Origin: Orenia metallireducens
GTDB taxonomy: Bacteria > Bacillota > Halanaerobiia > Halobacteroidales > Halobacteroidaceae
Length of the DNA stretch: 64,000 nucleotides
Assembly (NCBI RefSeq): GCF_003001995.1
Contig: NZ_PVNB01000002.1
Coordinates: forward strand, 124,001 to 188,000
Direction of reading: 5' to 3'
Shown here: positions 34,846 through 38,791 of the stretch, in pieces
Numbering within the stretch: the stretch's first letter is position 1
Layout: each line of letters starts with the position of its first letter
Notes under the pieces: generated by a model
What the model was told of the DNA's origin: nothing
What the model saw: the letters and a program-made list of their open reading frames with translations, nothing else
Database searches by the model: none
Position numbers and translations under genes: made by a program

Positions 34846-35913
34846 ATGGATTTTAATACCTTGGTTAATGTGACTATTGAACTGTTCAATATGAATAATA
34901 GACAATTAGGAGAATTACAGAATTTTTTACATAATTTAATAGGTAATAAATTAAGAAGGGAGGTAAAGTTTCTAATGGACGAACAGTTTATTGATAATAA
35001 AAAGATTGAAGTAGATTTATCAGATCAAAGAGTAGATATTGTTGACTTAACAGAAGAGAATCTATTTACAGATAGCTTAACTGATGATAATTTAACTAAG
35101 CAGGTCAGACAGATACTTGAAGATGATCAGATTATGAGTAAGATAAATATTGAAAATATAATTGAAGAAAAATTGAATAATCCTGCAATAATAGAGGAAT
35201 TAAAGGAATTGAAGATGGAATTTAATACATTAAAAGAAGAGTTAGTTGATCAACAGGAATCAATTATTGAAATTGCCCTTCAGAAGATGAAAGAAGAAAA
35301 TTCTTTGAAAGGAGGTGATAAAATGGCTGATGAAAAAGTAACGCTTGAACAGGTTGATTGTCCTGGCTGTCCAGAAGGATGTGGTGATATTGGGGATTTA
35401 AACCCATGTGACACTCCACTTGAAACTATAAGCTTTTGTTGTACCTTAGTTATTCCAGGTGGCTTTACTATACCAGTACCTCCAGAAGAGAGAGCTGCAT
35501 ATATTGAAGATAACTTTGATATCGCTGCTTACTTCTTAGAAGATGAAGGATGCTTTAGCTGTAGAACAATTGATTGTGTTGTTGTTGCAGGTACTTTTGG
35601 TGAAATTGCTGTAAAACAAGTATTGATTGAAGGATGCATTAAATTTATAGGTGGATTCTGTGTAGCTAGTGATTCAGCTTTAGATACTGGTTCTCAAGCT
35701 CCTGTATGCTGTGAAGGAATAATCTGTGTTCCTGATGAAGTTCCTGTTTGTATTGGCGGAGCTGATACTAGTTGCGATAACCTTAGAGTTATCAGAGCTG
35801 ATAATGTAACTGCTACTTTCAACGCTCCTACTACTTGTGATGAAATTGGTGGCGGAGATGCTGTTTGGGAAATAACTGGTGACCTTGTCTTTGCTTGTGG
35901 CCCATGTGAATAA
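34846..35913 (+). CDS. Fused acidic helical protein plus Cys-rich domain, 355 aa, with internal start
   Basis: ATG 34846 follows GAAAGGGGATTGTCT. Residues 1-158 are acidic and helical, with a coiled-coil-like stretch. Residues 160-355 form a cysteine-rich domain with about 20 cysteines (VDCPGCPEGCGDIG, SFCCTLVIPGGF, CFSCRTIDC, QAPVCCEGIICVP, VFACGPC). At the junction, AAAGGAGGTGATAAA is a near-perfect ribosome site for the in-frame ATG 35323, and the next gene starts at the equivalent point. So the second part is probably also made alone (196 aa). No signal peptide. Family unrecognised; a spore-coat or surface structural role is my inference. Confidence 0.75.
   Translation: MDFNTLVNVTIELFNMNNRQLGELQNFLHNLIGNKLRREVKFLMDEQFIDNKKIEVDLSDQRVDIVDLTEENLFTDSLTDDNLTKQVRQILEDDQIMSKINIENIIEEKLNNPAIIEELKELKMEFNTLKEELVDQQESIIEIALQKMKEENSLKGGDKMADEKVTLEQVDCPGCPEGCGDIGDLNPCDTPLETISFCCTLVIPGGFTIPVPPEERAAYIEDNFDIAAYFLEDEGCFSCRTIDCVVVAGTFGEIAVKQVLIEGCIKFIGGFCVASDSALDTGSQAPVCCEGIICVPDEVPVCIGGADTSCDNLRVIRADNVTATFNAPTTCDEIGGGDAVWEITGDLVFACGPCE
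35323..35913 (+). CDS. Cys-rich protein from internal start, 196 aa
   Basis: This is the same frame as the longer product but starting at ATG 35323, six bases after AAAGGAGGTG. The first residues MADEKVTLEQ parallel MAESKTTIIQQ of the next gene. About 20 cysteines and few lysines suggest a disulfide- or metal-rich structural protein. Whether the fused form, this form or both are made cannot be read from sequence alone. Confidence 0.55.
   Translation: MADEKVTLEQVDCPGCPEGCGDIGDLNPCDTPLETISFCCTLVIPGGFTIPVPPEERAAYIEDNFDIAAYFLEDEGCFSCRTIDCVVVAGTFGEIAVKQVLIEGCIKFIGGFCVASDSALDTGSQAPVCCEGIICVPDEVPVCIGGADTSCDNLRVIRADNVTATFNAPTTCDEIGGGDAVWEITGDLVFACGPCE
35350..35907 (+). repeat. Tandem duplication, copy 1
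   Basis: Nearly identical at nucleotide level to 36034-36588 (copy 2); only a handful of base changes and one 3-base difference (codons for VVVAGT versus VLQDT) are seen. A very recent duplication or ongoing gene conversion. Confidence 0.9.
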
Positions 35914-35928
35914 TAATATCTTTCTACA

Positions 35929-35957
35929 GTGTGGGTTAATAATCCCACACTTCTTTT
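35929..35957 (+). terminator. Stem-loop between the two Cys-rich genes
   Basis: GTGTGGG / CCCACAC with an eight-base loop, then TTCTTTT. Probably a partial terminator between the duplicates. Confidence 0.65.
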
Positions 35958-36000
35958 ATCAATTTTTTTACTTTAAATAAATTAGGAAAGAGGTGAAAAA

Positions 36001-37206
36001 ATGGCAGAGAGTAAAACAACTATAATACAACAACAGGTTGATTGCCCTGGTTGTCCAGAAGGATGCGGTGATATTGGGGATTTAAACCCATGTGACACTC
36101 CACTTGAAACTATAAGCTTTTGTTGTACCTTAGTTATTCCAGGTGGCTTTACTATACCAGCACCTCCAGAAGAGAGAGCTGCATATATTGAAGATAACTT
36201 TGATATCGCTGCTTACTTCTTAGAAGATGAAGGATGCTTTAGCTGTAGAACAATTGATTGTGTTCTTCAAGATACTTTTGGTGAAATTGCTGTAAAACAA
36301 GTATTGATTGAAGGATGCATTAAATTTATAGGTGGATTCTGTGTAGCTAGTGATTCAGCTTTAGATACTGGTTCTCAAGCTCCTGTATGCTGTGAAGGAA
36401 TAATCTGTGTTCCTGATGAAGTTCCTGTTTGTATTGGCGGAACTGATACTAGTTGCGATAACCTTAGAGTTATCAGAGCTGATAATATAACTGCTACTTT
36501 CAACGCTCCTACTACTTGTGATGAAATTGGTGGCGGAGATGCTGTTTGGGAAATAACTGGTGACCTTGTCTTTGCTTGTGGCCCATGTCCAGTTACAACA
36601 ACTACTACCACAACAACTACGACCTCTACTACTTCAACAACCACAACTACTACCGATACTACTACTACCACAACAACTACTACTTCAACTACTACTTCAA
36701 CTACTACTTCAACTACTACCACTACAGCCGAGCCTGAGCAAGTTTGTTTTTGCCAAGTAACAACTGCGCCTGGAGCAACAATTGATGACTGTGATATTAT
36801 TATCGGTGATGGTTGCCCTTGTGATTGTAGCTTAATGGTTGAAGTCTGCACAGGATGTATGGTTAATGGTAGCCAAATAACCTATATAGAAGGAGATAAC
36901 TCTCTTCTATACCAACAAGTTGGAGGTAGTCCATTTAACGTAGGAGAATTATGTTCAGTGACCTGCCCAACTGATGATACAGCAGTGATTGAAGGAATAG
37001 GAGAGTGGAATGGTGAGTTATGTAACTTCCGTATAACTTTAACTGAAGTTCCTGGTGAAGATGATGAAGGAACTATCACTATCTTCTGTCCTGTAGTCTC
37101 CTGCTCTGAAGACTTTGACGATGATGATATAGTCTATCGGGCAGAATTTGAGTTTGCAGGAAATTCAGTCAATATTAACCCCCAGCCTTGTGAAGCACAA
37201 GAATAA
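36001..37206 (+). CDS. Cys-rich protein with mucin-like Thr/Ser linker, 401 aa
   Basis: Residues 12-196 repeat the Cys-rich domain of the previous gene almost exactly. Residues 198-243 are nearly pure Thr with interspersed Ser and one Asp, a mucin-like linker suited to O-glycosylation. Residues 246-401 form a second, different Cys-rich beta domain (CFCQVTTAPGATIDDC, CPCDCSLMVEVCTGC, FCPVVSCSEDFDDDD). No signal peptide, as in spore-coat proteins made in the mother cell. AAAGAGGTGAAAA precedes ATG 36001. A glycosyltransferase-like and a sulfotransferase gene converge on it. Family unrecognised; the structural role is inferred from composition. Confidence 0.8.
   Translation: MAESKTTIIQQQVDCPGCPEGCGDIGDLNPCDTPLETISFCCTLVIPGGFTIPAPPEERAAYIEDNFDIAAYFLEDEGCFSCRTIDCVLQDTFGEIAVKQVLIEGCIKFIGGFCVASDSALDTGSQAPVCCEGIICVPDEVPVCIGGTDTSCDNLRVIRADNITATFNAPTTCDEIGGGDAVWEITGDLVFACGPCPVTTTTTTTTTTSTTSTTTTTTDTTTTTTTTTSTTTSTTTSTTTTTAEPEQVCFCQVTTAPGATIDDCDIIIGDGCPCDCSLMVEVCTGCMVNGSQITYIEGDNSLLYQQVGGSPFNVGELCSVTCPTDDTAVIEGIGEWNGELCNFRITLTEVPGEDDEGTITIFCPVVSCSEDFDDDDIVYRAEFEFAGNSVNINPQPCEAQE
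36034..36588 (+). repeat. Tandem duplication, copy 2
   Basis: Second copy of the 35350-35907 unit, ending exactly where the Thr linker begins. Confidence 0.9.
36592..36725 (+). repeat. Low-complexity ACN-rich tract encoding poly-Thr
   Basis: Runs of ACA/ACT/ACC with TCA/TCT interruptions (units like ACTACTTCA repeated three times near 36686-36716). The tract can expand or contract by slippage, changing linker length. Confidence 0.85.
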
Positions 37207-37221
37207 TCTAATCAATAGAAG

Positions 37222-37257
37222 AATAAAGCGTATTGGATATATCCAATACGCTTTATT
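37222..37257. terminator. Bidirectional terminator, perfect palindrome
   Basis: Eighteen-base arms AATAAAGCGTATTGGATA and inverse, no loop spacer. It serves the Thr-rich gene and the convergent sulfotransferase operon. Confidence 0.92.
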
Positions 37258-37293
37258 TATATATCGTAATAATAAATACTTAAAAAACTAAAA

Positions 37294-37893
37294 TCAACTA
37301 TAAGAATATCCATAAAAATCACAAAAGAACCTATACTCTATAATCAATTCCTGATTACAGTTCTTCTTAATCTCTTCATAGCTTAATTTAGAATGCTTTC
37401 TAGCATTAACATTAGTAGGCAAAGTTTCCAAAGGAAATTCTACATCTTCTTCTAATTGATACCTTAGATAATAGTATAAGGTCTGTTCTGGGTTGGCATC
37501 TACTTTAAGAATCAACTCTGGGTTCTGAGCTTGAATTATCTTATACCAGCCTAATACACTTTTAACTGCTTTCTCTATCTCATTCAACCCTGTAAAGTCA
37601 ATATACTTTGCTCTTAAGTTATAGCTGACAGGGACAGTATTTTCAGTATACAGTACACTAGAGATAATATCTAAAGGCTTTCTAATATTCATAATCAGAT
37701 GCTCAAATTCATAATTTTTTCTATTAACTCCACGTGGTCCCCAAAACTGATCCTCTTCAACAGCAAACATCCAACTGCTGATCCCATCTTCACCTAAGAC
37801 CTCATGCCCAACATCATAAGCAAATTTTTTTAATAACTTAGAGGTGAAGCCAGTACCACTTCGCGGATGACCAATATTTAAAAATTTTCTCAC
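37294..37893 (-). CDS. Sulfotransferase-family protein
   Basis: About 199 residues. The N-terminal P-loop FLNIGHPRSGTGFTSKLL is the PAPS 5'-phosphosulfate-binding loop of sulfotransferases, and HLIMNIRKPLDIISSVLY matches the 3'-phosphate strand with Arg and Ser. It would transfer sulfate to a sugar, peptide or small molecule. GTG 37893 is chosen: AGGAGG lies eight bases upstream, while GTG 37902 overlaps that site. It is the second gene of a two-gene unit behind a glycosyltransferase-like gene, and both point toward the Thr-rich protein gene. Sulfation of a glycan on that protein is my inference. Confidence 0.78.
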   Translation of the reverse strand: MRKFLNIGHPRSGTGFTSKLLKKFAYDVGHEVLGEDGISSWMFAVEEDQFWGPRGVNRKNYEFEHLIMNIRKPLDIISSVLYTENTVPVSYNLRAKYIDFTGLNEIEKAVKSVLGWYKIIQAQNPELILKVDANPEQTLYYYLRYQLEEDVEFPLETLPTNVNARKHSKLSYEEIKKNCNQELIIEYRFFCDFYGYSYS

Positions 37894-37951
37894 CCATAGC
37901 ACCTCCTAATCATTATTTTCTCAAGAAGCGAATAAATACTTTTATCAGTTT

Positions 37952-38791
37952 TCATCTATTAACCTCTTGGGATTTTAGTGCCATATACAAGCAATAATTC
38001 CTAACCTTATCTATATCTAAATTTTCAGTTGATAAGTGATTATAATTACCTGCCTTAAATTGACCCTTAGAGAACATATTCTTGGTATGCCAACAATGGA
38101 TATGAGGGTGTGTATCAATTGAATCACTTCCAGTGCTACCATAATCCAGCTTATCTCCATCAATTACAAAGTTATTGACAAGGTGATTAACTGCAATTTC
38201 ACAGCTATACATGGTGGTTAACCCCCGATACCATCCAGGCCATGCACCTTTATCAACTTTAAACTCAGTTGTCAATAAATATTCTGATATCGATAAAGCT
38301 AAAGTACAGACACTTCTTACTAACCTAGCCTTACCATAATGAGTCGAACCCAAATTATGAATCCCCTGATGCCTAAGTCCAAAGTGCTTAGCTATCCTTT
38401 TAATATTATCTCTAACTTCATCATTATTAGTGTATTGACCTCGTCCTACTGTATATAACTGAGGATAAAAAGAGTTCCAAGCAGGAGTTAAAAAGGTATC
38501 AACATCTGTCCTTAGAATCAAATCATAATCATCTAGAAAATCAGCCTGACTACCAACCAAACAACTAATAGAATTAATAAATCGATATTTTAGGAATTCT
38601 GCTGGGTCACTTAAAACACCATATTCTACTTTAATACAGTCATCTGCTACCCACTTCAAAGCACTCTTCGTCCCAAATACAACTAGATCGGTATCTTCAC
38701 TCTGTATATGCTTATATGATGTATATAAGCATTGAAATTGTAGCTTTAGCTTTCTTTTATCTTCAACAAAGACAACTATCGCCCTACGCAT
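37952..38791 (-). CDS. Glycosyltransferase-like protein (DUF7164-like)
   Basis: About 279 residues without signal or membrane segment. YDLILRTDVDTFLTPAW contains a DxD metal motif in the context used by nucleotide-sugar transferases, and HNLGSTHYGKARLVR plus the late HPHIHCWHTKN are strongly conserved-looking. The pattern resembles the DUF7164 group; I am moderately sure. AAGGAGGTGTTAATT places the start at ATG 38791. The sulfotransferase gene starts about 60 bases after its stop. The pair could decorate the Thr-rich tract of the neighbouring protein. Confidence 0.7.
   Translation of the reverse strand: MRRAIVVFVEDKRKLKLQFQCLYTSYKHIQSEDTDLVVFGTKSALKWVADDCIKVEYGVLSDPAEFLKYRFINSISCLVGSQADFLDDYDLILRTDVDTFLTPAWNSFYPQLYTVGRGQYTNNDEVRDNIKRIAKHFGLRHQGIHNLGSTHYGKARLVRSVCTLALSISEYLLTTEFKVDKGAWPGWYRGLTTMYSCEIAVNHLVNNFVIDGDKLDYGSTGSDSIDTHPHIHCWHTKNMFSKGQFKAGNYNHLSTENLDIDKVRNYCLYMALKSQEVNR

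Follow-up and report, generated by a model that had tools for sequence, protein, structure and literature searches.

How could an endospore-former build a sugar-coated surface from proteins that lack an export signal? The question is raised by four genes at positions 34846-38791 of a 64,000-nucleotide stretch of Orenia metallireducens DNA (contig NZ_PVNB01000002.1, positions 124,001 to 188,000), referred to here in its entirety as the window. Two tandem genes on the + strand encode cysteine-rich proteins, named Cys1 and Cys2, and a pair of transferase-like genes on the - strand, encoding a DUF7164 protein and a sulfotransferase-like P-loop protein, converges on them. Judged from sequence, the cysteine-rich proteins probably form a disulfide-rich spore-surface layer (coat or exosporium) made by the mother cell, with a mucin-like stalk that would be glycosylated in the cytosol and, in a few species, sulfated. 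Relatives in other spore-formers suggest that spores can acquire a sugar coat in this way, of which little has been described.

Two cysteine-rich proteins and a Thr/Ser stalk

Cys1 (34846-35913, + strand) has 355 amino acids (aa) with 19 cysteines, and Cys2 (36001-37206, + strand) has 401 aa with 33 cysteines. Cys2 comprises an N-domain (residues 1-196), a Thr/Ser stalk (residues 199-242) and a Cys-rich C-domain (residues 245-401; 36733-37203, + strand), while Cys1 consists of an N-terminal extension and a Cys-rich N-domain with no stalk, and has an orthologue of the same length in G012, a genome of the same order. A preliminary description of this DNA had reported two tandem Cys-rich genes without signal peptides, and indeed neither sequence contains an evident signal peptide or membrane anchor. 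It had also reported a linker of about 45 Thr/Ser residues followed by a second Cys-rich domain, which was recovered as a tract of 44 residues (36595-36726, + strand; 38 Thr, 5 Ser and 1 Asp) followed by the C-domain. The Thr codons of the tract are mixed (22 ACT, 9 ACA, 6 ACC and 1 ACG), which rules out simple triplet slippage as its origin in the window, whereas the tract of Halonatronum is a regular ACA/ACC array. Searches of Pfam, NCBIfam and PHROGs returned nothing reportable for Cys1 or Cys2, and, one chance hit aside, none at Pfam E < 1; SPOCS/SipL (PF12673) was not matched either, and an Rfam search gave no match.

The two copies of the N-domain (copy 1 in Cys1, 35323-35910; copy 2 in Cys2, 36001-36588; both + strand) align with 96.4% DNA identity. 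The synonymous divergence (dS) that separates the copies amounts to 0.05 within the window genome and to 0.17 within G012 (copies at L013 7070-7654 and 7725-8291), far below the ~0.7 between species, indicating that gene conversion keeps the tandem copies alike and that they evolve in concert in both genomes. In both, alignments show near-identical copies apart from the loop around Cys87, and this one retained difference, together with gene conversion, would fit two subunits sharing one lattice. The N-domain was found in the window genome (G000), G012 and G007 among 13 genomes of the order, and only in G000 and G007 among a phylum sample of 398 genomes. A known fold was sought for the N- and C-domains, and a full-length model (pLDDT 63, N-domain ~80) had no convincing PDB match in a search dominated by the C-terminal part, which barely probed the N-domain.

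Cys1 was first described as simply a Cys-rich protein. Its Cys-rich part stands, but the gene also encodes an acidic N-terminal extension of 159 aa (34846-35322, + strand) and contains an internal start. The extension has 74% aa identity and a nonsynonymous to synonymous substitution ratio (dN/dS) of 0.21 against G012, indicating that it is translated and under purifying selection. An in-frame Shine-Dalgarno sequence, AAAGGAGGTGA (35308-35318, + strand), lies upstream of ATG 35323 and is kept in G012; in-frame Shine-Dalgarno and ATG pairs at equivalent sites are found in the homologues of G012, G007, G001 and G010. With this arrangement, the Cys1 gene likely gives both a long and a short product. 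Between Cys1 and Cys2, a hairpin with a T-rich tail (35928-35951, + strand) may act as a partial terminator; it is kept in G012 (L013 7664-7693) and could reduce expression of the stalked protein. The converging arrangement of the transferase pair was as described, including a shared palindromic, terminator-like element (37222-37257) with a perfect stem of 16 base pairs.

The Thr/Ser tract follows DUF7164

The glycosyltransferase-like protein (37952-38791, - strand) belongs to DUF7164 (PF23741), matched at E = 2.6e-54 and 184.6 bits against a cut-off of 27, over profile positions 6-329 of 353. It displays a TDxDTF motif, a DxD motif of the GT-A type that is invariant in an alignment of five members, making it a putative GT-A-type glycosyltransferase-like protein; no significant sequence match was found in the PDB. 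The family is rare, being present in G000, G011, G012 and G008 (Halonatronum) among the 13 genomes of the order, in 2 of the 398 genomes of the phylum sample (G000 and G349) and in 6 of 397 genomes from the order to which Ectobacillus belongs. Among named genomes, a scan identified carriers in Halonatronum, Ectobacillus, Paraliobacillus, Filobacillus, Lysinibacillus, Virgibacillus, Rossellomorea and others, and no text naming DUF7164 was found in the open-access literature searched.

A Thr/Ser tract protein lies within the fetched flanks of 12 of 23 DUF7164 loci: the window, G012, G011, Halonatronum, G349, Ectobacillus, Paraliobacillus, Rossellomorea, Filobacillus, G812 and two metagenome-assembled genomes (MAGs), with the tract of MAG locus L075 running off the contig edge. 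Control loci totalling 141 kb contained no tract. One particular GT4 glycosyltransferase is encoded at 11 of the 12 tract loci and at none of the 11 others (Fisher p = 1e-5, uncorrected for kinship), the non-tract MAG locus L068 containing a 70-residue GT4 fragment only. Of the order's 13 genomes, 3 contain the long Thr pattern, each at a single site that lies near DUF7164, which excludes chance; this pattern is blind to tracts with AGY serine codons, and genome-wide absence holds for the pattern alone. G011, empty by the pattern, nevertheless encodes a tract several hundred residues long, ~6 kb away from DUF7164.

At these loci the tract is carried by at least four unrelated scaffolds, namely the N-domain (window and G012), a short CC-domain (G011, Halonatronum and G349) and the Filobacillus/Paraliobacillus, Ectobacillus and MSFPNIP types, a co-occurrence that supports the earlier proposal of a link between the glycosyltransferase and the Thr tract. 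The most direct hint that DUF7164 acts on the Thr stalk comes from the C-domain, which other genera have in proteins whose linkers are of Thr, Pro or Gly-Asn type. The linker is poly-Pro in G010, short and Pro-rich in G004, and made of Gly-Asn repeats in G001 and G005, and DUF7164 is absent from all four genomes, whereas the Thr-linked forms (window genome, G012 and Halonatronum) all occur in genomes with DUF7164. It could be speculated, tentatively, that DUF7164, usually with GT4, is a new family of polypeptide O-glycosyltransferase machinery for poly-Thr/Ser stalks and that the spores of some species bear a sulfated bacterial mucin, which would be the first sulfated glycoprotein of spores.

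Several other observations concern these loci. In G011, tandem CC-domain genes (L117 6033-8047), one nearly bare and one with a ~420-residue (STTT)n tract, lie beside rmlABCD-type genes, so that the pairing of a bare and a stalked gene seen in the window recurs on an unrelated scaffold. The short CC-domain (CCxxxGC...RxxxxIDCICA; L015 4844-5767 and relatives) is a recurrent unnamed Cys-rich module in the order and is often arrayed. Short MSFPNIPN.TP... proteins, sharing their start with stalked proteins, recur several times at Bacillales loci (L073 1601 and 7005; L074 9626 and 10891; L075 4413 and 7690). Small protein-kinase-like genes, mostly paired, adjoin DUF7164 at L013 12602-14011, L015 5899-7456 and L033 8366-9899, one G012 copy (L013) being seemingly broken by frameshifts. 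A further C-domain homologue in the window genome is weak and has no Thr stalk (L032); next to it and to CC-domain genes lies the gene of a 345-aa protein made up of Asp-Ala and Ser-Glu repeats (contig 20, L032 7517-8554). In G010, gas vesicle genes (GvpN, GvpL and GvpA/J-like; L028 2900-7350) directly adjoin the C-domain gene; as gas-vesicle-bearing halophilic spore-formers are named in the abstract of PMC4187190, this is a candidate link to spore-attached gas vesicles.

Spore context

Alongside DUF7164, the Bacillales loci encode collagen-like proteins, a member of the CotZ family of spore coat proteins (E = 1.6e-16) and proteins that match SPOCS weakly; collagen stalks and Thr/Ser stalks that bear the SPOCS-like domain occur together at these loci. 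Each of the 13 genomes from the order of the window has SpoIVA. A gene resembling SpoVB in sequence is found 2.5 kb upstream of the window locus, and others lie close to the G012 and G007 homologues. Nearly all named carriers of DUF7164 come from groups that form endospores; the exceptions are a MAG without classification and, at 30% identity, two plasmids of Caballeronia. The spore-surface role proposed earlier gains support from this combination of tract and DUF7164 on unrelated scaffolds, beside spore proteins, in distant endospore-formers.

Alternative explanations

Several points weigh against a sulfated, glycosylated spore-surface layer. Its glycan, sulfate and spore location are predicted from gene content. 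No tract was found at 11 of the 23 DUF7164 loci, the window locus has no GT4 partner, and 2 changes, each matched by GT4, suffice to place the tract on the DUF7164 tree, which implies few independent origins of the association. A search for mother-cell sigma promoter motifs, proposed earlier as a check, yielded nothing convincing above shuffles, and a SPOCS identity for the N-domain was rejected when profile comparison with the Bacillales SPOCS-like domains gave nothing. The AlphaFold model of the sulfotransferase-like protein (pLDDT 32) is unusable. Adenosine 5'-phosphosulfate (APS) kinase, whose presence in the window genome would fit sulfation, occurs in 12 of the 13 genomes of the order and was therefore rejected as a discriminator. 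The earlier inference that the four genes together make the layer also finds no support in that form, as they are not one fixed system: G007 has the N-domain but no DUF7164, other Cys-rich scaffolds are found beside DUF7164, which often lacks a tract, and the sulfotransferase is an accessory.

The first alternative, possible but unlikely, accepts the glycosylated spore stalk and takes the 202-aa P-loop protein for another P-loop transferase, or an unrelated protein, so that no sulfated glycans would be formed. The gene (37294-37893, - strand) lies in a reading frame open to 37902, and GTG 37893, behind AGGAGG, is a likelier start than 37902. The sulfotransferase identity given in the preliminary description holds for the 5'-phosphosulfate-binding loop GHPRSGTGF, near the N-terminus, yet the Pfam family cut-off is not reached. 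Searches of viruses and plasmids turned up no relatives. The protein has no match in Pfam, NCBIfam or PHROG, a homologue is present in only 1 of the 16 DUF7164 genomes searched, and among the 13 genomes of the order the gene is confined to G000, which, with the unusable model, favours this alternative. On the other side, the Ectobacillus relative (47-48% identity) keeps both the loop and a later RxPLDIISS motif and follows directly after DUF7164, in the same slot as in the window, at a locus that also holds ATP sulfurylase, APS kinase and two proteins matching Pfam sulfotransferases; its own Pfam sulfotransferase match reaches 13.4 bits, below the cut-off of 27. DUF7164 of G011 has as its neighbour a sulfotransferase that belongs to a different Pfam family, bringing the count to 3 of the 23 loci, one of them with ATP sulfurylase and APS kinase. 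In profile comparison only the 24-residue P-loop aligns to sulfotransferases (P = 0.0017, though with a probability of 15%). Sulfation of the spore glycan is thus plausible, but it is the least secure step. If true, it would be a surface chemistry not described in the portions of the open-access literature searched, where no text joined spore, exosporium and sulfotransferase.

A second alternative, which we regard as fairly improbable, is that DUF7164, GT4 and the sulfotransferase make a crust-like spore-surface polysaccharide, the tract proteins being co-located and not the acceptor. Nucleotide-sugar and polysaccharide genes, named by resemblance, do occur at several loci (rmlABCD-type in G011, sugar epimerase-like elsewhere), and the loci without a tract also fit this explanation. 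Yet it would leave aside that the linker chemistry of C-domain homologues tracks DUF7164, that the tract is found on unrelated scaffolds, and that GT4 follows the tract. Finally, it is very improbable that Cys1 and Cys2 form a vegetative cell-surface or secreted glycoprotein, as might be argued from the missing sporulation promoter motif, given the lack of a signal peptide or membrane anchor, the CotZ and SPOCS-like neighbours in relatives, the SpoIVA genes of all 13 genomes of the order, and the carriers' presumed endospore-forming habit.

Proposed assembly of the layer

If Cys1 and Cys2 do form a glycosylated layer on the spore, the mother cell would make both proteins during sporulation, and their near-identical N-domains would co-assemble into one disulfide-linked lattice, a step suggested by the anatomy of the proteins and by gene conversion. 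Cys1 would provide bare subunits, and those from Cys2 would bear a Thr/Ser stalk topped by a Cys-rich head, with the conserved intergenic hairpin possibly keeping the stalked subunit minor. DUF7164, cytosolic like its substrate, may add a sugar to Thr/Ser or extend such a sugar, working with GT4 in most relatives, as their co-occurrence with the tract suggests. Weakest of all, the P-loop enzyme may move sulfate from 3'-phosphoadenosine-5'-phosphosulfate onto the glycan in the window species. The spores of this halophile would thereby carry a brush that is hydrophilic and perhaps anionic. Across the loci, anchor and head domains appear to stay the same while the chemistry of the stalk between them (Thr, Pro, Gly-Asn or collagen) is exchanged, and the enzymes that modify a stalk appear to go with it. 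DUF7164, an uncharacterised enzyme family, thereby gains a testable function and could help to locate mucin-like proteins of spores in other Bacillota.

Comparison with known systems

Eukaryotic mucins have a dense Thr/Ser O-glycan stalk between Cys-rich domains, are sometimes sulfated and are made in the secretory pathway; the likeness is one of analogy only, as the window protein would be made in the bacterial cytosol. Among the DUF7164 loci, those of Paraliobacillus and Filobacillus combine CotZ-type proteins with a SPOCS-like domain on a collagen or Thr/Ser stalk, a domain that has no profile similarity to the window N-domain. The exosporium filaments of the Bacillus cereus group (BclA, F-Anchor and F-BclA) likewise consist of an anchor domain, a long stalk that is glycosylated or probably so, and a C-terminal head; in B. 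thuringiensis, the collagen stalk of F-BclA is rich in Ser/Thr and a glycosyltransferase is encoded close by (PMC11952670). However, those filaments have collagen stalks with TNF/C1q or DUF4183 heads, while the Cys2 stalk is Thr/Ser instead of BclA-type Gly-X-Y collagen and its Cys-rich head has no Pfam match. Nor do the Cys-rich domains of the window match the Pfam families of endospore appendages (DUF4183 or DUF3992), and fold searches with the full-length model, in which the N-domain was barely probed, gave no convincing match.

The earlier statement that no system of this kind had been described is nearly right for the open-access literature searched, but the SgtA/BclA3 pair of Clostridioides difficile is a close functional precedent, and the closest one. 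According to the available excerpt of PMC7157674, SgtA is encoded immediately upstream of bclA3 and adds beta-O-GlcNAc to Thr of the BclA3 collagen-like stalk in vitro. Both systems would thus pair a spore-surface, Thr-rich stalk with an adjoining, dedicated glycosyltransferase gene, a likeness at the level of description. The BclA3 stalk is collagen-like (Gly-Pro-Thr), and the excerpt mentions no sulfotransferase. The Orenia locus would apply that principle to a stalk of plain Thr/Ser, using another enzyme family and a sulfotransferase-like protein.

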